56,916 bases of DNA from assembly GCF_025370785.1 (NCBI RefSeq), contig NZ_JAMXFA010000042.1, forward strand, positions 1 through 56,916. Reading direction: 5' to 3'. The DNA comes from Laspinema olomoucense D3b. GTDB taxonomy: Bacteria; Cyanobacteriota; Cyanobacteriia; Cyanobacteriales; Laspinemataceae. Positions 14,967 through 34,431 of the stretch are shown here, in pieces. A model generated the notes under the pieces. The model ran no database searches, was not told the DNA's origin, and saw nothing but the letters and a program-made list of their open reading frames with translations. Positions within the stretch are counted from its first letter, which is position 1. Every line of letters starts with the position of its first letter. The position numbers and the translations under genes were made by a program.

Positions 14967-16364
14967 ATGAGTGCATCGAATCCTGCTCAAAGATCGGGAC
15001 CGGGGGTTCCGACTCTACCGCCTAATTTGCATCTGCGATCGTATCAAAAACAGGCGATCGCCAGTTGGTTTGGCAATCAGGGACGAGGAACCCTGAAAAT
15101 GGCAACGGGAAGCGGCAAAACCATCGCTGCTTTAGCGATCGCCACGGAACTGTATCACCGCATTGGATTACAAGTGTTGCTTATCCTCTGTCCCTACCGC
15201 CACCTCGTCAATCAGTGGGCGCGAGAATGTGAGACATTTGGATTGGCCCCGATTTTAGCCTTTGAAAATGTTTACACCTGGCACAGTCAGCTTTCCACCC
15301 AACTTTACAACGTCCGGGCTAACCTCCAGCCTTTTCTCACAATTATTACGACTAATGCCACCCTGATTAGTGAGGGATTACAGTCTCAATTGCGGTTTTT
15401 CCCCGAAAAAACCTTGATTATAGGGGATGAAGCCCATAACCTGGGTGCCCCGCGTCTTGAAGAAAGTTTACCCCGTCAAATTGGCTTACGATTAGCCCTT
15501 TCTGCTACCCCAGAACGCTATTTTGATGAGACTGGAACAGCGGGTTTACTAGAGTATTTCGGCCCGGTTATTCCCCCGGAGCTGACCCTTGCTGATGCAA
15601 TTCGAGCAGGGGCATTAGTGCGGTATCTCTATTATCCGATTCTGGTGAATTTAACTGAATCTGAAGGCTATGCTTATATAAAATTAACAAAGCGCATTGG
15701 CTGGATATTAAGTCATCAAGAAAACCTGGATCTTGAGCATGATGATTTAAGAGGATTAGTGATGCAACGCGCCCGGTTAGTTGGATCAGCCAGTAATAAA
15801 TTAAATGCTTTGCGAGAGTTAATGAAAACTCGCCTGCATACCAGTCATACGTTATTTTATTGTGGGGATGGGACCGTTGAACAGTCCGGTTCTCGGGGCA
15901 GCGATCGCCAACTGGAAGCGGTTTCCCACCTGCTGGGGTCTGAACTTGGCTATCGGGTGAATACCTACACCGCTGACACGGCGATCGAGGAACGAGAAGA
16001 ATTGCGACGGCAATTTGAAAGCGGAGAATTACAAGGATTAGTCGCAATTCGCTGTTTAGATGAAGGGGTGGATATCCCTGCGATTAAAACCGCTGTGATT
16101 CTCGCCTCTAGTGGCAATCCCCGCCAGTTTATCCAACGTCGGGGCCGGATTTTGCGCCCCCATCCCAACAAGGATAGAGCCACTCTCTTTGATACCATTG
16201 TTATGCCTCCGAAACTCGACCGAGAAGCATTAGAAATCGAGCGAAATATCTTAAAAAAAGAATTGCGCCGCTTCATAGAATTTGCGGATTTAGCAGACAA
16301 TGCAGGGGAAGCGCGAATGCAATTACTTCAACTTCAGAAATCTTACGGATTATTAAGTCTTTGA
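14967..16364 (+). CDS. SF2 DEAH helicase, dnd-linked restriction family
   Basis: A 465-residue superfamily II helicase/translocase. Walker A MATGSGKT lies near residues 45-52, DEAH at 154-157, SAT at about 179, and motif VI QFIQRRGRILRP near 395. The layout matches the family named DNA phosphorothioation system restriction enzyme, known by co-occurrence with dnd genes rather than by biochemistry. I see no nuclease motif inside it, so if the system cleaves DNA, another subunit must do it or a cryptic fold exists. It is the first gene of a three-gene operon: 69 bp separate it from the next gene, which in turn overlaps the ATPase gene. It starts the island and diverges from the Ap4A phosphorylase-like gene. 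Confidence 0.82.
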   Translation: MSASNPAQRSGPGVPTLPPNLHLRSYQKQAIASWFGNQGRGTLKMATGSGKTIAALAIATELYHRIGLQVLLILCPYRHLVNQWARECETFGLAPILAFENVYTWHSQLSTQLYNVRANLQPFLTIITTNATLISEGLQSQLRFFPEKTLIIGDEAHNLGAPRLEESLPRQIGLRLALSATPERYFDETGTAGLLEYFGPVIPPELTLADAIRAGALVRYLYYPILVNLTESEGYAYIKLTKRIGWILSHQENLDLEHDDLRGLVMQRARLVGSASNKLNALRELMKTRLHTSHTLFYCGDGTVEQSGSRGSDRQLEAVSHLLGSELGYRVNTYTADTAIEEREELRRQFESGELQGLVAIRCLDEGVDIPAIKTAVILASSGNPRQFIQRRGRILRPHPNKDRATLFDTIVMPPKLDREALEIERNILKKELRRFIEFADLADNAGEARMQLLQLQKSYGLLSL

Positions 16365-16433
16365 CAGTTGGGGGAAACCCCGGTAAAATTAATGACAATT
16401 GGGTAACACTTCAATCGGGGAGGAAATCATCAA

Positions 16434-16727
16434 ATGTACGCCAGTCACCCGCCAGAATCAGATACAACTTTGGGAGTCGCCTATCCTTCCGGGACAGTTC
16501 CGGTCAAAAAGCACCTTATTTTCGCAGAAAATCAGCCCGCCTATCACCCCAGCAACCGACCCCAAGAGGAACTGCGCGATATCGAAGAACCAATCCTCAG
16601 TGCCTCCCCAGAAGTCCGCGCCATTATTGAGCGGGTTTTGCAAGCGGAAAAAGATAAACTCTATATGAAAATGCCCCGGAATATTAACGATGATATCCTC
16701 AAAATTGTCAAGGAAGTAATTCAATGA
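16434..16727 (+). CDS. Small protein between helicase and Rad50-like ATPase
   Basis: A 97-residue protein with a strong ribosome binding site (GGGGAGG) before its ATG. The first half is Pro-rich and probably disordered; the second half is helical and charged (SPEVRAIIERVLQAEKDKLY, then NDDILKIVKEVIQ). Its stop overlaps the ATG of the following ATPase gene (ATGA), a sign of translational coupling and equal dosage. This is the best evidence that it is real, since two other frames are also open here. I infer an adaptor or accessory subunit of the helicase/ATPase pair. I do not recognise a family. Confidence 0.72.
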   Translation: MYASHPPESDTTLGVAYPSGTVPVKKHLIFAENQPAYHPSNRPQEELRDIEEPILSASPEVRAIIERVLQAEKDKLYMKMPRNINDDILKIVKEVIQ

Positions 16728-18796
16728 AACTGATTTCTCTCACTCTTTGTAATTTTCGCCAATTTTATGGCAGAACCCCCGAAATTTTCTTATCCCGAGG
16801 GTCGCATAATACGACCATCATTCATGGCAATAACGGGTCCGGTAAAACTACCCTAATGAATGCCTTTACTTGGGTACTTTATGAACAATTTTCCGCTGCT
16901 TTTGCCGGACCCGATCGCCTGGTGAATAAACGCGCAATCACCGAAGCAAAACCCGGTGAACCCGTTGCCTGCTGGGTGCAATTAGTATTTGAACATGACA
17001 GCAAACGCTATCAAGCAAAACGCCTAATTCGTGCTTACAATACCCAGACGGGAATTACGCATGGTTCGAGTGAATTATTTATGACGATCGCCGGAGATGA
17101 TGGCAGATGGTCACCGCCTCCACCGCAACAACATCCCGATGATATCATTGGCCGGATTTTACCCGAAAGTTTACATCAATATTTCTTTTTTGATGGAGAA
17201 CGAATCGAGTATATCGTCCGGTCCGAGAAAAAAGCTGAAATTGCCGAAGCAACTAAAAAATTACTGGGATTAGAAGTCTTAAATCGGTCAATTCGGCATC
17301 TCGGGGAAACCCGCAAAAACTTAGAAACGGAATTAAAAGCGATTGGCGACCCGCAAACCAAACAATTATTAAAAGAAAAGGCAACCCGGGAAAAAGATGG
17401 CACTCGCCTCCAGAAACGACAAACTGAGATTACCAAAGAGTTAGAAGCACAAGCGCAACTGAAGAAAACCATTAGCGATCGCCTCCTGGAACTAGGTGGG
17501 GCCGAAGAATTGCAAAAGCGGCGCAAAAACCTAGAGGAACAAAACACCTCCATTCGCAACCAATTAAAACAAGCTAAAGAAGCGCTAAAACGGGCCATTT
17601 CTACTCAAGGTTATATCACTTTACTGGGAGAATTTACCAGCGAATTTAGAACTTTAGTTAATGATTTACGGAACCGAGGGGAATTACCAGCAGGGATTAA
17701 ACAACCCTTTGTCCAACAATTGCTCGATCGCCAACGCTGTATCTGTGGATCCGAACTTAGCGAAGGCAATCCCGCCAGACAACTGGTGCGATCGTGGATG
17801 GACAAAGCAGGCATGGCAGACATTGAAGAAACCGCCATTCGTATGAGTACCCAAGTGGAAGCGATCGACAAACAAGTACCGGACTTTTGGCAAGAAATGG
17901 ACCGCCAACAAAAGGCGATCGAAGGATTTAGAACCGAACTTTCTGCCATAGAAAATCAGCTTGATGAAATCAAAGATAAACTAAGAAGCTATCCCGATGA
18001 AAACATCCAAGAGTTGCAAAAGCGCCTAGACGAAATCGAACGCAAAATGAGCGAACTCGACCGAGAATCTGGTTCCAATCAAACCCAAATCGACAGCTTG
18101 CAAGGGGCGATAGAACGGTTAAACAAGCAACTGGAAAAGCAGAAAACCAACGAAGAGAAACAAGAGTTAGCCAAAAAAAGAGTTTTCGCCACCCAGGATG
18201 CGATCGACCGCTTAACCGAGGTGCGATCGCGCCTAGAAAACCAATTTAGAACCCAACTCGAACAACGAGTTCAGGAAATATTTAGTGAAATTTCCTTTAC
18301 TCCATATCTCCCAAAACTCAGCGACAAATATGAACTCACCTTAATCGAAAATACCAGCGGATTTGAACTCCCCGTTGCTGCCTCCACTGGAGAGAATCAA
18401 ATTCTTAGCTTATCCTTTATTGGGGGTATTATCGACGGCGTTCGCGAGTGGAGTAAAAAGAACACCTTAATGGGACCGGATAGCAGTACCTTCCCCATCG
18501 TCATGGACTCCCCCTTTGGCAGTTTAGACGAAATTTATCGCCGCCAAATTGCCAAAATTCTCCCCCAACTTGCTAATCAACTCGTTGTCTTAGTCACCAA
18601 AACCCAATGGCGAGGAGAAGTCGCCCAAGAAATGAGTCCTTATATCGGCAAAGAATATGTCCTTGTCTACAATTCTCCCAAACCCGATTGCGAAGAAGAC
18701 TGGATAGAATTAAAAGGAATGCGCTACCCCTTAGTTAAGTTGAGTCCGAATGAATTTGAATATACCGAAGTTGTGGAGGTAGACGAAGCATTTTAA
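16724..18796 (+). CDS. Rad50/SMC-like ATPase related to DndD
   Basis: A 690-residue ABC-type ATPase. Walker A GNNGSGKTT is at residues 35-43. Long coiled coils span about 180-320 and 375-510. Between them is a Cys-x-Cys hinge (RCICGSEL) in the place where Rad50 has its zinc hook. Signature and Walker B regions lie near the end (GENQILSLSFIGG and PIVMDSPFGSLDE). The segment FDGERIEYIVRSEKK...LLGLE parallels FDGEQVKELAEQE...LLGLE in DndD at 27684, so the two are paralogues. Because it is coupled to the 97-residue gene and sits behind the helicase, I infer it belongs to the restriction or sensing arm, not to sulfur insertion. Confidence 0.83.
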   Translation: MKLISLTLCNFRQFYGRTPEIFLSRGSHNTTIIHGNNGSGKTTLMNAFTWVLYEQFSAAFAGPDRLVNKRAITEAKPGEPVACWVQLVFEHDSKRYQAKRLIRAYNTQTGITHGSSELFMTIAGDDGRWSPPPPQQHPDDIIGRILPESLHQYFFFDGERIEYIVRSEKKAEIAEATKKLLGLEVLNRSIRHLGETRKNLETELKAIGDPQTKQLLKEKATREKDGTRLQKRQTEITKELEAQAQLKKTISDRLLELGGAEELQKRRKNLEEQNTSIRNQLKQAKEALKRAISTQGYITLLGEFTSEFRTLVNDLRNRGELPAGIKQPFVQQLLDRQRCICGSELSEGNPARQLVRSWMDKAGMADIEETAIRMSTQVEAIDKQVPDFWQEMDRQQKAIEGFRTELSAIENQLDEIKDKLRSYPDENIQELQKRLDEIERKMSELDRESGSNQTQIDSLQGAIERLNKQLEKQKTNEEKQELAKKRVFATQDAIDRLTEVRSRLENQFRTQLEQRVQEIFSEISFTPYLPKLSDKYELTLIENTSGFELPVAASTGENQILSLSFIGGIIDGVREWSKKNTLMGPDSSTFPIVMDSPFGSLDEIYRRQIAKILPQLANQLVVLVTKTQWRGEVAQEMSPYIGKEYVLVYNSPKPDCEEDWIELKGMRYPLVKLSPNEFEYTEVVEVDEAF

Positions 18797-18810: not shown

Positions 18811-18904
18811 AACCGGGTTTCTCACCAAAATTGCTGCAATTTAGCATAAACTTGGTTAAGAAACCCAGTTTCTAACCTTAAACAAATGACCAATGACCAA
18901 TGAC
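18811..18904 (+). repeat. 94-bp direct repeat, left copy
   Basis: Copy one of a direct repeat with 85 of 94 bases identical to 19860-19953. It contains its own inverted arms (AACCGGGTTTCT and AGAAACCCAGTTTCT), so it belongs to the dispersed palindromic family. The ATG of the DUF4351 gene (18900) lies inside its right end. Confidence 0.88.
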
Positions 18905-19811
18905 TCGCTTTATTCATGACCAATTTGCCAAAGATTACTTAGAAGAATTGCTGTCCCCTTATGGCGAAGTCAAACCATCCCGGCGAGTTGCCGGAGAAGT
19001 CCGAGAAATCGATGTTTGGTTTGCACCTTCCCCCATCGCCGCTGCCAATCTTGCCGGATTAGGATTATTAGGACGATTCGCCAGGACCCCGGCAATCTTT
19101 GAACCCTTTCGCAACCCCGCCAACCCCGACGACATCTGTAATTGCCTTTTAAAATTACTAGAAGTCCGAGGAGATTACCAACGAGAAGCGAATCGGAATA
19201 ATACCCTGATTCAAGAGTCAAACTTACCCAAATTATGGATACTCACCCCGACGGCATCGGCTAACCTTTTAAAGGGATTTAGAGCTATACTAGAACCAAA
19301 TTGGTTGCCTGGGGTGTACTTGATGGGGGACTCTCTGAGAACGGCGATCGTGGTGATTCACCAACTACCCCAAACCTCAGAAACCCTCTGGTTGAGACTT
19401 CTGGGAAGGGGAAGCGTCCAAAAACGGGCGATCGATGAACTCGAAGCACTTCCACAGGATAACCCATTGCGGGCAGTTGCCTTAGAAATGCTTTACAACC
19501 TGCGACAAAACTTACAAGTTAATCAAAGTAACGATGCAGAAGAACGGGAGTTAATTATGCGATTAGCACCACTTTATCAACAAGACCGAGAACAGGCAAT
19601 CCGTGAAGGAGAACAGCGAGGAATTCAGGAGGGACAGCGCCAATTGATAGACAATTTCTTGCGGGGACGCTTTGGGGAATTAGATGAGGAACTTTCTGCA
19701 TTGATTGACCTCTTATTAGCATTACCTCCCAAAGAATTGAGCGCCCTCATGCTACAATTAGCTACTCTATCTCGCGAAGAATTATTAGGGAGATTTTCTG
19801 AAAGGGACTAA
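18900..19811 (+). CDS. DUF4351 protein with nuclease-like N-terminus
   Basis: A 303-residue protein. The N-terminal 200 residues contain GEVREIDVWFAP, resembling a PD-(D/E)XK core strand of the Rpn-like proteins linked to transposons. A charged stretch QAIREGEQRGIQEGQRQ (about 230-250) leads into a C-terminal DUF4351 module (FGELDEELSALIDLLLALPPKELSALM...). Such proteins are numerous in cyanobacterial genomes and behave like mobile or selfish genes. Here the gene is bracketed by two 94-bp direct repeats, and its start codon falls within the left one, which points to insertion by recombination. Whether it takes part in the Dnd system is doubtful. Confidence 0.75.
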   Translation: MTRFIHDQFAKDYLEELLSPYGEVKPSRRVAGEVREIDVWFAPSPIAAANLAGLGLLGRFARTPAIFEPFRNPANPDDICNCLLKLLEVRGDYQREANRNNTLIQESNLPKLWILTPTASANLLKGFRAILEPNWLPGVYLMGDSLRTAIVVIHQLPQTSETLWLRLLGRGSVQKRAIDELEALPQDNPLRAVALEMLYNLRQNLQVNQSNDAEERELIMRLAPLYQQDREQAIREGEQRGIQEGQRQLIDNFLRGRFGELDEELSALIDLLLALPPKELSALMLQLATLSREELLGRFSERD

Positions 19812-19859
19812 ATCTTTGATTTTTTGAGCAAAAACTGTTTGACCAACCCCCGGACCAGG

Positions 19860-19953
19860 AACCGGGTTTCTCGTCAAAGTTGCTGCAATTTACCATAAAC
19901 TTTGTTAAGAAACCCGGTTTCTAATCTTAAACAAATGACCCATGACTAATGAC
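19860..19953 (+). repeat. 94-bp direct repeat, right copy
   Basis: Copy two of the repeat at 18811-18904, in the same orientation, starting 48 bp after the DUF4351 stop codon. The inverted arms are better preserved here (AACCGGGTTTCT and AGAAACCCGGTTTCT). The rest of 19954-20068 shows no gene. Confidence 0.88.
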
Positions 19954-20068
19954 CCGTAACAAATAACTGCCGATCGCGCTAGAAGAGGAAACTGGCACAA
20001 TCCTGCTGCAAACCGGCGCAATTTAGGCTACAAATCCCTCGTATGAAAGCGTAAAAATTGATAACTCA

Positions 20069-21022
20069 ATGAAAGCATTGCAAGTCTTAGCAGGCGTTTT
20101 AGTCGTCTTCACCCTACCCAATAGCGCCGAATTGGTACCACCGGGGAGAGAAACCCCCCTCACCGAGTTGGGGGATACCTTCGAGGAAGTTGGGTGGAGT
20201 TATAACTTCAATAACCCTAAACTCCACAATCAATATCACAATCCCGGTTCGGGTTGGGTTGAAGTGATCCATGCGGGGAATGCTCCCACTGGTGTCTCTG
20301 CCAATGGCAGGTGGATGGAGGGACCGACTCGGGGACATCCGGATATTGTGGAACAAGTCACAACCCCACCGGGAGGCATACCTGGAAGTCAATATTCCTT
20401 GCGTCTAAGAACTACAAATTCTGGCACTCCTAATATTACTCAAGGGACGATTCAACAAGACGATTTACTGAATATTATTCCAGGAAAAATAAACGGGGAT
20501 ATTCCTCTGGGTTCAGGGTTAAGTGTGGTGACGCGAATTTATCTACCACCCTTAAACCAATGGCAAGATATGAGTGGATATCATATCGGGTTTCGCGTCG
20601 GTGCCACGGGACGAAAACCCGATGGTCAACTTGCAGATTATTGGCCGGGAATTTGGATGTGGATGGACAAAGAAAGTAGTGGTCGTCGCTCTTTTCGCTG
20701 GGTGGTTCGCGCCAATAACGAAGGGGTAGATGTCAATGCCAGCGAACAAAAATTCACGAATACAGGATGGTGGACTCTTGGCATGGCATTCAATTCAGAT
20801 GGGTCTATTAGTTACTACGCCAGTCCGGGAGTTGATGATTTAACTCCGAGAGATTTACTCACCTTCCGCGCCGGTTCTCAGTCTGCTGCGGCGACTTATA
20901 CCCCTTATGGATTTAAGTTTGATAATCTGGACTATTTGTTCTTTTCTACGGGGAATACAGATGGTCAAAATTCCACAGAATTTATCATTGATGATGTGGG
21001 GGTGTATCGAGTGGAACCCTAA
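20069..21022 (+). CDS. Secreted protein, lectin/glucanase-like fold suspected
   Basis: A 317-residue protein with a signal-like N-terminus (MKALQVLAGVLVVFTLPNSA; cleavage probably after NSA). The mature part has alternating strands and many aromatic residues (WPGIWMWMD, SFRWVVRANN, GWWTLGMAF) and ends with IIDDVGVYRVEP. This pattern suits a concanavalin-like beta sandwich as in polysaccharide lyases and LamG proteins, but no catalytic motif is certain. It is out of place between Dnd genes, since the Dnd pathway is cytosolic. It may be a passenger gene. No clear ribosome binding site precedes the ATG. Confidence 0.6.
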   Translation: MKALQVLAGVLVVFTLPNSAELVPPGRETPLTELGDTFEEVGWSYNFNNPKLHNQYHNPGSGWVEVIHAGNAPTGVSANGRWMEGPTRGHPDIVEQVTTPPGGIPGSQYSLRLRTTNSGTPNITQGTIQQDDLLNIIPGKINGDIPLGSGLSVVTRIYLPPLNQWQDMSGYHIGFRVGATGRKPDGQLADYWPGIWMWMDKESSGRRSFRWVVRANNEGVDVNASEQKFTNTGWWTLGMAFNSDGSISYYASPGVDDLTPRDLLTFRAGSQSAAATYTPYGFKFDNLDYLFFSTGNTDGQNSTEFIIDDVGVYRVEP

Positions 21023-23564: not shown

Positions 23565-24638
23565 GTGCTAAATACGGCCTTTGAATATGTCTTACCTGTC
23601 ATCCGGGGAATCCAGGCGGGACGGGAATACTATGTATCCATGTGTCCTCTGCGACTGCTGCCGAAACTGTTCCCTTTGGAACAGGGGGAAACGCCGCCAG
23701 AAAAGCGGGCACGGCGATCGCTGAATCGGACCCGAGTGCCACAAATTACCCAGTATATTTTGGATAATCCCCAGAGTTATACCCTCTCGGCGATTACGGC
23801 CTCTATTGATGCAGATATCACCTTTGAACCCCTGGGAACAGAGGCGGAAGGGCGAAAAATCGGACGCTTGCGAGTGCCAATGGATGCGCGATTTACCATC
23901 AATGACGGCCAACATCGGCGGGTGGCATTTGAGTCGGCATTGAAGGAGAATCCAGAGTTAGGATATGAAACCATTCCCCTAATCTTGTTTCTGGATGTGG
24001 GTTTGAAGCGATCGCAGCAAATTTTTAGTGACCTCAACCGCTACCCAGTGCGATCGGACCCTGCCTTAAATCTGCTGTATGACCATCGCGATCGCGCCGC
24101 CGCATTAGGGAGAGGTGTATATCAGCAAGTGGAGGTATTCCGCACCCTCACGGAAACCGAACGCAGTCATTTAAGCACCCGGTCTGGTAAACTCTTTATA
24201 CTCCCCCATATTTGTCAGGCAACCGTGACATTATTGGCAGACCGGGAAGGGGAACCCCTAGAGGCACAAATCCAACAGGCAGTGGATTACTGGAATGCCG
24301 TCAGTCGGCAAATACCAGATTGGCAACTTGTATTAGACCGCAAAGTCAGCGCTTTTGAGATGCGGCGAGATTACCTGCATACCCAGGCGATCTTCTTAAT
24401 CGGACTAGGCGCAGTGGGTGCAACGTTACTCCGGACCTATCCAGACACCTGGCGAGACCATTTGGACCCCTTGCGGCAAGTCGATTGGTCGCGATCGAAT
24501 TTAGACTGGGAAGGGAGGGTGATTTTCAAGGGTCAACTGTCCCCAGGGTCAACCAGCGTGATCCGGATGACTGCTTATCTGAAACAGCGCTTAAATTTGC
24601 CACTAACGGAGGAAGAGAAGCGTTTGGAACATGAGTAG
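23565..24638 (+). CDS. dndB: DndB-type DGQHR protein
   Basis: A 357-residue protein, the usual length for DndB, with FTINDGQHRRVAF placing the DGQHR motif at residues 114-118. The flanking layout also fits: IRGIQAGREYYVSMCPL at the start, RVPQITQYILDNP, then VGLKRSQQIFSDLNRYPV after the motif. DndB is described as a DNA-binding repressor of the dnd operon; here it is not co-directional with a second gene but faces its two relatives. The start is GTG at 23565 after GGGAGGG. The downstream end is convergent with the gene at 24710-25885. Of the three DGQHR proteins this one best deserves the name DndB. Confidence 0.8.
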   Translation: MLNTAFEYVLPVIRGIQAGREYYVSMCPLRLLPKLFPLEQGETPPEKRARRSLNRTRVPQITQYILDNPQSYTLSAITASIDADITFEPLGTEAEGRKIGRLRVPMDARFTINDGQHRRVAFESALKENPELGYETIPLILFLDVGLKRSQQIFSDLNRYPVRSDPALNLLYDHRDRAAALGRGVYQQVEVFRTLTETERSHLSTRSGKLFILPHICQATVTLLADREGEPLEAQIQQAVDYWNAVSRQIPDWQLVLDRKVSAFEMRRDYLHTQAIFLIGLGAVGATLLRTYPDTWRDHLDPLRQVDWSRSNLDWEGRVIFKGQLSPGSTSVIRMTAYLKQRLNLPLTEEEKRLEHE

Positions 24639-25925: not shown

Positions 25926-25967
25926 ATAGCCATTGCCATTTAGAAAATATCAAGGAGTTTGGAGATT

Positions 25968-27596
25968 ATGCCACAACAAGGCCAAATGTCGCTTTTTCCA
26001 CCTCGGACTGTGGAAGAATTAGTAGAAGACATCGAAAAATTAACGAAAGAGATTCAAGCGCTCTACTGTTTAGATGAAATTCCCTGGATTTTGGGGTATT
26101 CAGGCGGTAAAGATAGCACAGCAACATTGCAGTTAGTCTGGAATGCGATCGCGCAACTTCCTCCCTCAAAACGAACCAAAACAATTTACGTTATTACAAC
26201 AGATACCCTGGTAGAAAATCCAATTGTTGCGGGTTGGGTTCGCAAATCTATCGATAATATGAAAGTAGCAGCTATGGAACAAAAAATGCCTTTTGAACCG
26301 CATTTGCTGCAACCCGATATTAAGCATACATACTGGGTAGGTTTAATTGGAAAAGGATACCCAGCACCTAGAATTAAATTCCGATGGTGTACTGGGCGCT
26401 TAAAAATAGAACCATCTAACCGTTTCATTCGCAATGTAGTTAGAACCAATGGTGAAGCGATTCTTATCTTAGGAACTCGTAAAGCCGAAAGTTCTAAACG
26501 TGCTGCCACAATGAAAAAACTAGAAGAAAAACGAGTGCGTGATCGCCTAAGTCCTAATGCTCATTTACCCAATTCTCTTGTTTATAGTCCTATTGAAGAC
26601 TGGCGCAATGATGAAGTCTGGATTTATTTGAATCAATGGTCTAATCCTTGGGGACAAAGTAACAAAGACCTTTTTGTCATGTATCGTGAATCTACCGCCG
26701 ATAATGAATGTCCTCTAGTCGTTGACACCTCTACTCCTAGTTGTGGAAGTTCTCGTTTTGGATGCTGGGTTTGTACTCTAGTTGATAGTGACAAATCTCT
26801 GACTGCAATGATTCAAAATGATGAAGAAAAAGAGTGGTTGCAACCTCTAGTAGATATCCGTCTTGAATTGGATATTGAAAATGATCGCCAGCATAGAGAC
26901 TTTCGCCGAATATGGGGAGATGTCCAATTATTTGAGCGAAATATTGAAGGACAAACCTCAGTGGAGCCAATCCCCGGACCTTATACTAAGGAATGGAGAG
27001 AATATTTACTGAAAAGAATTTTAGAAGCTCAAACTTTGGTCCGTAAGACTGCCCCGGCAAACATGGGAGATATTACCCTAATTAGTTTAGACGAACTCAG
27101 TGAAATTCGTAGAATTTGGCTGGAAGAGAAGCATGAATTTGATGATAGCTTGCCCAAGATTTATGAAGAAGCGACTGGGGAAGTATTTAAGGATCCTCGT
27201 CCTGGCGCTGGCAATCAGTTGTGGGGAAGTGATGAGTGGGAGGTTTTGCATGAAATCTGCGAACCGGATGCGATGCACTTGGAATTGATGTCTAAATTGA
27301 TTGGAACGGAGTATCAGTATCATACGAAGTCTCGGCGGATTGGGGTGTATGATGCGTTAGAGAAATGCTTTGAGAGTAGTTCGCGATCGCAGGAAGAAGC
27401 AATTGAAAATGCTCATTACAAGCGGGACCTAAAAACTGCTGCTAAGGACGGGGATGTTTATGCGATTAAACAGCTCAAAAATCGCGAAATGAAACCGTCT
27501 GTGACTGATGGGGATGTTGCTGGGACTAAACAGTTAAGTTGGGGGATGATGAAATATCCAACTATCACTCCTGATGATGAGGATGGAGAGAATTAA
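25968..27596 (+). CDS. dndC: DNA sulfur modification protein DndC
   Basis: The sulfurtransferase of the phosphorothioation pathway. It has an ATP pyrophosphatase fold like PAPS reductase: ILGYSGGKDSTATL gives the PP-loop at residues 45-51. A cysteine group CGSSRFGCWVC about residues 250-260, with an earlier cysteine (CPLVV), is where DndC binds an iron-sulfur cluster. Length 542 is typical. A TTG codon at 25959 is in frame but touches the AAGGAG site; the ATG at 25968 has correct spacing. The last 50 residues hold a lysine-rich imperfect repeat (DGDVYAIKQLK / DGDVAGTKQLS). It leads the dndC-dndD-dndE series. Confidence 0.95.
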   Translation: MPQQGQMSLFPPRTVEELVEDIEKLTKEIQALYCLDEIPWILGYSGGKDSTATLQLVWNAIAQLPPSKRTKTIYVITTDTLVENPIVAGWVRKSIDNMKVAAMEQKMPFEPHLLQPDIKHTYWVGLIGKGYPAPRIKFRWCTGRLKIEPSNRFIRNVVRTNGEAILILGTRKAESSKRAATMKKLEEKRVRDRLSPNAHLPNSLVYSPIEDWRNDEVWIYLNQWSNPWGQSNKDLFVMYRESTADNECPLVVDTSTPSCGSSRFGCWVCTLVDSDKSLTAMIQNDEEKEWLQPLVDIRLELDIENDRQHRDFRRIWGDVQLFERNIEGQTSVEPIPGPYTKEWREYLLKRILEAQTLVRKTAPANMGDITLISLDELSEIRRIWLEEKHEFDDSLPKIYEEATGEVFKDPRPGAGNQLWGSDEWEVLHEICEPDAMHLELMSKLIGTEYQYHTKSRRIGVYDALEKCFESSSRSQEEAIENAHYKRDLKTAAKDGDVYAIKQLKNREMKPSVTDGDVAGTKQLSWGMMKYPTITPDDEDGEN

Positions 27597-27683: not shown

Positions 27684-29666
27684 GTGATTTTTATTGAACT
27701 GGTTCTGCAAAATTTTGGTCCTTATATGGGACGACAGGTGATTGATTTACGTCCCCAAATTCAGGGGGAAACTCGTCCGATTATCCTGTTTGGGGGGATG
27801 AATGGTGGAGGGAAAACCACCCTGATGGATGCCATTCGGTTAGCGCTTTATGGTCCTCGTGCTCAATGTTCGACCCGAGGCAATTTGAATTATAGTGATT
27901 TCCTGACTCAATGTGTGACTCGGGATTCGGATCCGGTGGAAAAAACTCGGATTGAGTTGGTGTTTGAGCATTTTGAAAATGATGCGGCAGTGGAGTTGCG
28001 GATTGTGCGCTATTGGGAAGCAAATCCCAGGGATGGTAAGGATACGTTAGGGATTTTAGAAGGAGATTGGCCCCGAACAGATTTGACGAATATTTGGGAT
28101 GAATATATCGAAAATTTGTTGCCCTTGGGAATTTCTAATCTGTTTCTATTTGATGGGGAACAGGTGAAGGAATTGGCGGAACAAGAAACGCCGCCTCCGG
28201 TGGTGGTAGATGCGATTCAATCGCTGTTGGGGTTGGAGTTGGCGGAACGGTTATCCATAGATTTGGATATTTTGGTCCGGCGGAAACAGAAGAAGTTGGC
28301 AAGTGCAAAGCAGTTGGCAAGTTTGGAAGAAATTGAACAAAAGTTGTCCAAATCTACGGGGGAACTAGAGGAGGCAAAGCAAGAGTTAGGCGGGTTACAA
28401 AATAATTTAGAAAAGGCCCATGAACGGCAGCGGGAAGCATGGGATAAGTTTATTTCAGAAGGGGGGAAAATTGCAGCACAACGGACTCAGTTAGAAAAGC
28501 AAAAGCGCAATTTAGAAGGAAATTTGGAACAGATGCGCGAGTCTTTGGGGGAATTAGCTGGGGGGAGTTTACCCTTAGCTTTGATTCAACCATTGCTGAA
28601 TCAGGTGCAGGTTCAAGGGGAAACCGAGGCGAAGTCTCTTCAGGCAAAAATTGCGCGGGATGTGGTGAAGGAACGCAGTAGTCGTCTAGTAGAATATCTG
28701 GACAAATTGAAGCTGAAACCACAGCAATTAGATAAGATTAAGTTTTTTCTGGATCAGGAGGATGAGGCACTCGATCGCGAAATAGGTTCTGAGGAGGATT
28801 TGTGGTTGTCGGCGGATGAGGAAACCCTGTCTTTGTTAGCGAATGTTTTGCGTCATGAACTGCCGAGTCAGGTAAAATTAGCGGAGGAAAAGTTGCAATC
28901 TGTGGAAGCATTGGAGGTGGAAATTACTTTCAATGAACGACAACTGGCATCGGCCCCTTCTCCGGAGATTTATGAGCAATTGGATGCGGCATTGAAGGCG
29001 GCACAAGCGGCAGTGGTAAAAGCACAAGGGGACTATAATAATGGTCAGCAGCGATGCGATAAGTTAGGCAAAGATATTGAGGGGTTCAAGAAAGAACTGG
29101 CGGTGTACAGTGAAACGAGTATTGAACGCCAAAATGATGAGCATATTATTGAATCATCGAAGAAGGTTCAGGAAACTCTGAAATTGTTTAAGGAACGGTT
29201 AACCCTGCGGAAGTTAAATAAGTTAGAGGTGGAGGTAACGGACTGTTTCCGCTATCTGTTACATAAAGTGGATTTAGTCCATCGGATTGCCATTGATACT
29301 CAAAGTTTTGGATTGTCTCTGTACAACCCCGAGGGTCAACCTGTCCCCAAACATCGCCTCTCGGCGGGGGAAAAACAGTTGTTAGCGATCGCCTTTTTGT
29401 GGGGATTAGCGCGAGTCTCGGGACGGCATCTGCCGGTGGCGATCGATACGCCATTAGGACGCTTGGATTCGTCCCATCGGAATAATCTGATTGAACGCTA
29501 TTTTCCCTCAGCATCCCATCAAGTGATTTTGTTATCTACGGATACAGAAATTAGCAAAAATGAGTATGAACATCTTTTAGAACAAGAGGCGATCGCCAAC
29601 AGCTACCTCCTCAAATATCAACCAGAAACCCGAAAAACTGTTGTACAAAAAGGCTATTTCTGGTAA
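27684..29666 (+). CDS. dndD: DNA sulfur modification protein DndD
   Basis: A 660-residue SMC/Rad50-type ATPase thought to nick or reshape DNA during sulfur insertion. It opens with MIFIELVLQNFGPY and Walker A GGMNGGGKTT at 37-46, continues with LFDGEQVKELAEQE and coiled coils (about 205-300 and 390-520), and ends with the signature LSAGEKQLLAIAFLWGLARVSG and Walker B PVAIDTPLGRLD. Unlike the paralogue at 16724 there is no Cys-x-Cys hinge. It starts with GTG (27684), 87 bp after dndC, and has no strong ribosome site. Confidence 0.94.
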   Translation: MIFIELVLQNFGPYMGRQVIDLRPQIQGETRPIILFGGMNGGGKTTLMDAIRLALYGPRAQCSTRGNLNYSDFLTQCVTRDSDPVEKTRIELVFEHFENDAAVELRIVRYWEANPRDGKDTLGILEGDWPRTDLTNIWDEYIENLLPLGISNLFLFDGEQVKELAEQETPPPVVVDAIQSLLGLELAERLSIDLDILVRRKQKKLASAKQLASLEEIEQKLSKSTGELEEAKQELGGLQNNLEKAHERQREAWDKFISEGGKIAAQRTQLEKQKRNLEGNLEQMRESLGELAGGSLPLALIQPLLNQVQVQGETEAKSLQAKIARDVVKERSSRLVEYLDKLKLKPQQLDKIKFFLDQEDEALDREIGSEEDLWLSADEETLSLLANVLRHELPSQVKLAEEKLQSVEALEVEITFNERQLASAPSPEIYEQLDAALKAAQAAVVKAQGDYNNGQQRCDKLGKDIEGFKKELAVYSETSIERQNDEHIIESSKKVQETLKLFKERLTLRKLNKLEVEVTDCFRYLLHKVDLVHRIAIDTQSFGLSLYNPEGQPVPKHRLSAGEKQLLAIAFLWGLARVSGRHLPVAIDTPLGRLDSSHRNNLIERYFPSASHQVILLSTDTEISKNEYEHLLEQEAIANSYLLKYQPETRKTVVQKGYFW

Positions 29667-29785: not shown

Positions 29786-30205
29786 ATGGAACCACCCCTC
29801 GACCGAATTAAACTCTCTCAAACTGCTAAAGAACAACTCAGTAAACTCAAACGTTATACGAAAATTGACCAATGGAATATTTTATGCCGCTGGGCCTTTT
29901 GTAAATCCTTGTCAGAAACTTCTACCCCTTCTCCCGTTCCCATTCCCGCCGATAGTAACGTGGAAATGAGTTGGCGAGTCTTTGGCGGAGAAATGTCAGA
30001 TATTTTAATTTTGGCATTGAAACAACGCTGTCACCAAGATGGATTGGGGACGGATAAAGAGACATTGGCGAATCAGTTTCGCTTGCATCTGCATCGCGGG
30101 ATTGGGTATCTGGCAGGAGACCCGAATATTAAGAAAATTGAGCATTTAATCGAGGTGGCAGTGGCGAGTCAGACAGGGGAGAAAGAATCAAAAGGGAAAC
30201 AGTGA
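29786..30205 (+). CDS. dndE: DNA sulfur modification protein DndE
   Basis: A 139-residue protein with the typical DndE pattern: LDRIKLSQTAKEQLSKLKRYTKIDQWNILCRWAFCKSL, a short Pro-rich loop, then EMSWRVFGGEMSDILILALKQRC and a helical end. DndE binds nicked DNA as a tetramer in the studied systems and is needed for modification. It ends in a lysine-rich tail. It is separated from dndD by 119 bp that contain the 42-bp repeat, so the usual tight dndCDE coupling is loosened here. Confidence 0.92.
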   Translation: MEPPLDRIKLSQTAKEQLSKLKRYTKIDQWNILCRWAFCKSLSETSTPSPVPIPADSNVEMSWRVFGGEMSDILILALKQRCHQDGLGTDKETLANQFRLHLHRGIGYLAGDPNIKKIEHLIEVAVASQTGEKESKGKQ

Positions 30206-33888: not shown

Positions 33889-34431
33889 ATGAGTTTAACA
33901 ATTACCGACTTGGAACAAGTCCAACGGGAACATCCCGAGTGGAACCTGGAATTAATTGACGGAGGGATTAAGGCAATGGGTCCATCTGACGACACCTCTA
34001 GCGAAATTGGTGCGCGGTTTTGCCGATTTTTAGGCAACTGGGTTGATCCCCGTCGATTAGGGCGAGTTTATGATTCTAGTGGGGGATTTATCCTCCCCAA
34101 TACCGACTTGCGTGCACCGGATGTATCCTTTGTTCGGGCGGACCGAATTAAGCGCAGCAATCGGGATTTTGTGCGCCTAGTTCCCGATTTGATGGTAGAA
34201 ATTAAATCAAAAAGCGATCGCATTAATCCCCTCGCCGATAAAATAAAACTTTTTTTAGCATTAGGAACTACCGTCGGGATATTAGTTGACCCGGATAAAG
34301 AAACCGTAACTGTCTATCGTCCCACCGGAGAAACTACCGTACTAAATACTGAAGATACTTTAACAATTCCTGAATTATTTCCCGGTTGGGAAATGCCAAT
34401 TGCTGATTTATGGCCGCCGGTATTTGAGTAA
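33889..34431 (+). CDS. Uma2-family (DUF820) PD-(D/E)XK protein
   Basis: A 180-residue protein with the Uma2 pattern: the opening MSLTITDLEQVQREHPEWNLELIDG, a central PNTDLRAPDVSFVR, LVPDLMVEIKSKSDR (the D...E-x-K core), then GVILVDP-like strand (VGILVDPDKETVTVYRP) and a C-terminal LTIPELFPGWEMPI. Uma2 genes are abundant in cyanobacteria and usually unrelated to any one system. It follows the methyltransferase gene by 30 bp, so co-transcription is likely, and it precedes the second 42-bp repeat. Confidence 0.88.
   Translation: MSLTITDLEQVQREHPEWNLELIDGGIKAMGPSDDTSSEIGARFCRFLGNWVDPRRLGRVYDSSGGFILPNTDLRAPDVSFVRADRIKRSNRDFVRLVPDLMVEIKSKSDRINPLADKIKLFLALGTTVGILVDPDKETVTVYRPTGETTVLNTEDTLTIPELFPGWEMPIADLWPPVFE

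Follow-up and report, generated by a model that had tools for sequence, protein, structure and literature searches.

A helicase-only PbeA in a PbeABCD gene set beside dndBCDE in Laspinema olomoucense D3b and its cyanobacterial order

The window analysed here is a stretch of 56,916 nucleotides from Laspinema olomoucense D3b, order Cyanobacteriales, and represents one whole contig (NZ_JAMXFA010000042.1) of a 7.02 Mb genome. At 14967-18796 it contains a superfamily 2 (SF2) helicase gene, a small gene and a Rad50/DndD-like ATPase gene, in the company of a Dnd cluster for DNA phosphorothioation (PT). By their family matches and order the three are PbeA, PbeB and PbeC of the PbeABCD, or CxC ABC-ATPase, antiviral system. 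The system itself is known already. What looks new, as judged from sequence, is its helicase-only form across a cyanobacterial order, in which PbeA is without the HKD nuclease domain that most PbeA proteins elsewhere carry. No paper describing a helicase-only PbeA in cyanobacteria was found in the open-licence literature, supplementary files excluded. The set is interpreted as PbeABCD paired with DndBCDE and containing a nuclease-less PbeA, which may act as a PT-coupled block to the replication of unmarked DNA; the chances of this are put at about even.

Identity and conservation of the PbeABC genes

The three open reading frames of the original prediction were confirmed, together with the ATGA overlap of the second and third (Table 1). 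The helicase scores 646.5 bits against TIGR04095, for which the NCBIfam cut-off is 600, and 523 bits against the PADLOC model of PbeA. Helicase motifs I, II, III and VI are present, as located by pattern matching. The nearest named relatives of this PbeA, at 94-96% identity, belong to Laspinema, Phormidium and Oscillatoria. The ATPase scores 1101 bits with PADLOC PbeC and 184 bits with the DndD model. It has a Walker A motif at residue 35 and a CxC at residue 339, the CxCG being kept in the window and in all 42 relatives examined.

The 97-residue protein has no family match in PADLOC (PbeB included), Pfam or NCBIfam, and the slot between PbeA and PbeC is judged to be filled from position and conservation. 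Its homologues occur in 45 of 97 fetched loci, all but two of them (43) within the window's order, and share a conserved C-terminal module. The ATGA overlap with PbeC is retained in 39 of the 42 loci having both genes. This indicates translational coupling and not, as had been proposed, the stoichiometry of a complex. Against five near relatives, the ratio of nonsynonymous to synonymous substitution rates (dN/dS) is 0.07-0.09 for PbeA, 0.11-0.18 for PbeB and 0.02-0.05 for PbeC. The trio are real genes under purifying selection. The possibility that the small frame arose by chance was rejected, as it is conserved with a dN/dS below 0.2, and that of a new kind of restriction arm was rejected because the PADLOC and NCBIfam matches lead to PbeABC.

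The trio is thus genuine, but the three-gene set of the original prediction is incomplete: the system needs a fourth gene, for which the PbeD candidate lies outside 14967-18796. From its position PbeD is likely the TIGR04062 protein, separated from PbeC by two unrelated-looking genes. On a Ruegeria plasmid TIGR04062 directly follows the helicase, small protein and ATPase, giving an A-B-C-D operon, and it also takes the PbeD position in relatives. The dN/dS of the candidate is 0.02-0.06 (three relatives). Its AlphaFold model has a mean predicted local distance difference test score of 83.6. Among the 50 matches listed from the Protein Data Bank in a fold search, only DndE crystal structures exceeded a TM-score of 0.4 (0.41-0.66), all with E above 1; the TIGR04062 profile gave a single match to solved structures (E 0.42). 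The intervening stretch, 18900-21022, holds an Rpn-like protein with a weak TIGR01784 match and a 317-residue protein whose beginning is signal-like and which matches nothing in Pfam or NCBIfam.

Absence of the HKD nuclease domain

The N-terminal HKD domain is absent from PbeA in the window and in all 81 intact loci of the order, which were read one per genome in 81 genomes; one of these loci (L069) has just 133 bases 5' of its open frame. Seven other PbeA-bearing genomes of the order (G078, G103, G306, G155, G153, G237 and G119) lie outside the fetched loci and have open frames of 485-513 residues. The window's helicase spans only positions 242-681 of the 682-position PADLOC profile. No homologous HKD domain was found in its genome, nor in the six-frame open reading frames of at least 60 residues in the window, and the earlier statement that the trio holds no nuclease motif stands.

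An HKD-like match was obtained in 29 of the 78 order genomes searched, and none in 49, the window's included. The 29 matches consist of six HKD-fused second copies of PbeA and 23 matches at 26-42% identity, mostly within long frames. A second, diverged HKD-fused PbeA-like protein stands beside a helicase-only copy in G116, G253, G312, G357, G070 and G197 (L129-L133, L135).

Beyond the order, two genomes (G193 and G170) encode PbeA proteins of 733 and 714 residues whose N-terminal stretch contains an HKD-like motif. The Pfam model PLDc_2 gives 20.9 bits on the G193 protein, below its cut-off of 27. Among the best 80 named PbeA loci, all cyanobacterial by title, HKD is present in six (Pseudanabaena, one uncultured and one Synechococcales) and missing from 74, of which three have fewer than 700 bases upstream. 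From 30 plasmid matches, 12 loci were taken; nine have HKD, two of these in split frames, and three do not. The three helicase-only plasmid proteins are from Natrinema, Halorhabdus and Lactiplantibacillus, none of them cyanobacterial, so the helicase-only form extends beyond cyanobacteria. The two split cases are on Arthrobacter and Chlorohelix plasmids (L219, L221), where the HKD part is either divided between frames or in a frame apart from that of the helicase; on the Chlorohelix plasmid a transposase adjoins it. On the Pseudanabaena galeata plasmid pPg_01 (L136:11254-13404) the annotated PbeA start is 11974, and the open frame from 11254 holds HKD, so that the start in the public record seems to be placed too far downstream.

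In both PbeA trees the HKD-bearing G193 and G170 branch from among the helicase-only sequences (support 83; 94/86). The approximately unbiased test does not reject a tree that keeps the helicase-only sequences together (p-AU 0.636), and the likelihood of that tree is higher by 4.45. A single clean loss of HKD was dropped as a proven event, since the trees and p-AU are compatible with a single loss, with repeated losses and with a gain in Pseudanabaena.

Distribution and inheritance

The phylum sample comprised 386 genomes, 105 of them from the window's order. The markers scored per genome were PbeA, PbeC, TIGR04062 and DndC. PbeC and TIGR04062 were scored with models in 78 order genomes and, in the other 27, by blastp of the window's proteins against the fetched loci. 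PbeC is absent from the fetched stretch in 42 of the 81 order loci, partly through contig ends.

PbeA matches were found in 99 of the 386 genomes and DndC in 94. Within the order PbeA is present in 92 genomes: PbeA and DndC occur together in 89, both are missing from nine, PbeA is alone in three and DndC in four. The full set of four markers occurs in 87 order genomes, none of them in nine and a mixture in nine. In these counts a decayed TIGR04062 match (G268) was scored as absent, and a genome with broken PbeA and DndC frames (G385) as having both. The nine marker-free genomes fall in few lineages and perhaps represent three or four independent losses rather than nine.

The proposed tie of the trio to Dnd without dndFGH survives within the order, where seven of the 105 genomes are split for PbeA and DndC and the DndH model, with no positive control, exceeds its cut-off in none of the 386. 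It fails outside the order. There the frequent presence of the trio without dndCDE, which the original prediction had itself counted as contrary, is observed: in the 2019 report by Xiong (PMC6459918), 320 of 553 PbeAC pairs have no dndCD nearby. The coupling of Pbe to Dnd outside the order is loose.

When family labels are mapped onto a 94-row PbeA tree they change 23 times, compared with a minimum possible of 18 and a shuffled mean of 54.7. PbeA tracks the taxonomic families closely, suggesting that it was inherited vertically. The Pbe and Dnd genes are often scattered, also on closed chromosomes, for instance in G143, where their positions on a single contig are 2.10, 2.47, 3.34 and 3.98 Mb. 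In 37 of 38 loci of two families (f6 and f3), lexA directly precedes pbeA and is read from the same strand, the distance being 18-494 bases in most and 1313 in one; this neighbour was seen in none of 45 loci in other families, the window's own among them. The pairing (e.g. L052:7454-9800, with argF nearby) is kept even where pbeBC sit elsewhere. Pbe genes are also found on plasmids. PbeA-like helicases of 33-40% identity occur in four unannotated metagenomic phage records (MT835493, MT835506, MT837093 and MT835926).

Proposed mechanism and alternative explanations

In the proposed mechanism DndCDE would lay PT marks on host DNA, and the PbeC ATPase with a DndE-like PbeD would scan DNA. PbeB, translationally coupled to PbeC, would connect PbeC/PbeD to PbeA. 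The SF2 motor PbeA would then act on mark-free DNA, so that replication is stalled rather than the DNA cut. A PT-coupled replication block is the best-supported mechanism because the helicase motifs and CxC hook are intact, purifying selection is evident and the system itself contains no nuclease. The archaeal experiment suggested a block of this kind (PMC6459918).

Several points weigh against this interpretation. PT modification and virus resistance in cyanobacteria are predictions from gene content, and PbeB is assigned by position only. Alignment of TIGR04062 with DndE by hhalign gave no support for kinship between PbeD and DndE. Fisher p-values on the co-occurrence ignore relatedness, and about three to four separate losses underlie them. 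Defence systems are seldom so nearly universal within an order. A nuclease could also be supplied in trans, Uma2 proteins being abundant. Finally, the 2024 reappraisal of these systems argues that cleavage belongs to the mechanism (PMC10853773).

The same system might leave cleavage to a separate nuclease recruited in trans, whether another PLD protein, Uma2 or a host repair nuclease, which is possible though on the whole unlikely. The window's Dnd cluster includes a Uma2 gene, and some order genomes have an HKD-like match. The nearest solved relatives of PbeA are archaeal XPB helicases; these act with a separate nuclease, Bax1, and the partnership is counted in favour of a trans nuclease. The idea is countered by the 49 order genomes without such a match and by the nature of the 29 matches described above. 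Uma2-like proteins were found by direct blastp within 8 kb of pbeA in 13 of 81 loci, approximately as expected from the 73 Uma2 matches in the 7.02 Mb of the window's genome, and single-linkage clustering placed them in two groups, of 10 and 13 loci. Uma2 was rejected as a dedicated nuclease, being near background density. No other nuclease recurs near pbeA across families, in clusters named by eye. An explanation in which the set is a vertically kept, PT-dependent chromosomal function, in genome maintenance or gene regulation rather than antiviral defence, is considered unlikely. It would account for the presence of PbeA through most of the order, its grouping by family, the lexA neighbour in f6 and f3 and the dispersal of the genes on closed chromosomes. 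However, the family is antiviral where tested (PMC6459918), its genes are carried by plasmids too, and the lexA neighbour is missing in the other families, including the window's.

That the set is a degenerate remnant, its function lost along with the nuclease domain, is highly improbable. Decay is seen in a few genomes, pbeA being broken in G385, G054 and G159. A remnant is disfavoured because dN/dS is 0.02-0.18 across the four genes, and the conserved ATGA overlap, helicase motifs and CxC hook also speak against it. A further reading, distinctly doubtful, would make the Dnd-Pbe set of the order a near-core, vertically inherited and nuclease-free guard of chromosome replication, with PT marks as a licence read by PbeCD-PbeA and any antiviral action secondary or lost.

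Comparison with known systems

The original prediction held that the trio had no experimental description. For the system this proved wrong: in Haloterrigena jeotgali, PbeABCD and DndCDEA were tested in 2019 and protect against virus. The viral DNA remained intact and replication was inhibited, and low-level resistance remained without pbeA (PMC6459918). The strain A29 set resembles that of the window in having a helicase, a small protein, a DndD-like ATPase and a small fourth protein beside dndCDE without DndFGH. Its PbeA has a PLD domain, whereas the window's has none; additionally, DndB and DGQHR proteins are encoded in the window, and its PbeD is two genes away from PbeC.

The 2024 reappraisal (PMC10853773) treats PbeABCD as CxC ABC-ATPase systems and PbeA as an HKD nuclease-helicase fusion in the vast majority. 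The window resembles the CxC ABC-ATPase-DndE anchored systems in its PbeC CxC hook and its small protein, beside canonical DndDE, and may do so in having a putative DndE cognate. Those systems are mostly HKD-SF2 helicase fusions, in contrast to the HKD-less proteins of the window's order.

The helicase family had been linked to phosphorothioation as early as 2011, when ProPhylo tied TIGR04095 and TIGR04062 to it and called the former apparently a second restriction enzyme dependent on DNA phosphorothioation; no further mechanism is given there (PMC3226654). The window's proteins exceed both curated cut-offs, for dnd_restrict_1 (TIGR04095, 'DNA phosphorothioation system restriction enzyme') and dnd_assoc_4 (TIGR04062). 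Both are family models.

The need of PbeABCD for cutting is disputed. No cleavage was seen in 2019 (PMC6459918), as opposed to the HKD-based argument for cleavage of 2024 (PMC10853773). An HKD-less PbeA across a whole order offers natural variants in which the requirement can be tested, and a putative nuclease-less Pbe coupled to PT bears on the view that Pbe acts by cleavage. A 2021 paper (PMC8569181) also claimed that cyanobacteria have none of the components for PT restriction and that dnd originated in them as an antioxidant system. The presence of PbeA, PbeC and TIGR04062 in most DndC-bearing genomes of the order bears on that claim.

The Dnd neighbourhood

The DndFGH (DptFGH) restriction complex would occupy the same slot beside DndBCDE. 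The absence of DndFGH noted in the original prediction agrees with zero matches in the window's genome to dnd_assoc_1, _2 and _3, models that matched no control genome and hence have no positive control. These models are taken here to be DndG, DndF and DndH. Across the 386 genomes the DndH model gave no match over its cut-off and one below, likewise with no positive control. The absence of dndFGH from cyanobacteria was reported independently by Jian in 2021 (PMC8569181). The suggestion that a DndD paralogue replaces the DptH motor finds no support in the present results.

The presence of dndC, dndD and dndE was confirmed. So were the three DGQHR/DndB-family proteins, a count that includes DndB.

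Table 1. Features of the window, with coordinates on the contig and the basis of each assignment
Feature	Coordinates	Strand	Basis
PbeA, SF2 helicase, 465 residues, helicase-only without N-terminal HKD nuclease domain	14967..16364	+	TIGR04095; PADLOC PbeA
PbeB by position, small protein, 97 residues	16434..16727	+	conservation; location between PbeA and PbeC
ATGA overlap, PbeB stop / PbeC start	16724..16727	+	sequence
PbeC, Rad50/DndD-like CxC ABC-ATPase, 690 residues	16724..18796	+	PADLOC PbeC; CxC; Walker A
PbeD candidate, TIGR04062 (dnd_assoc_4), 156 residues	21133..21603	+	185.8 bits, cut-off 74.25
DGQHR-domain protein, 544 residues	21697..23331	-	TIGR03187 170.7 bits
DndB	23565..24638	+	TIGR03233 454 bits
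DndB-family protein, 391 residues	24710..25885	-	PF14072 290 bits
DndC, sulfurtransferase	25959..27596	+	TIGR03183 693 bits; SGGKDS motif at residue 48
DndD	27684..29666	+	TIGR03185 673 bits; no CxC
DndE	29786..30205	+	TIGR03184 140 bits; PF08870
dnd-associated putative methyltransferase, 999 residues	30859..33858	+	TIGR04096 1050 bits
Uma2 (putative restriction endonuclease family) protein, in Dnd cluster	33889-34431		

In the 999-residue putative methyltransferase the TIGR04096 model covers the C-terminal half, and residues 1-495 match just HNH_repeat, at a sub-threshold score.

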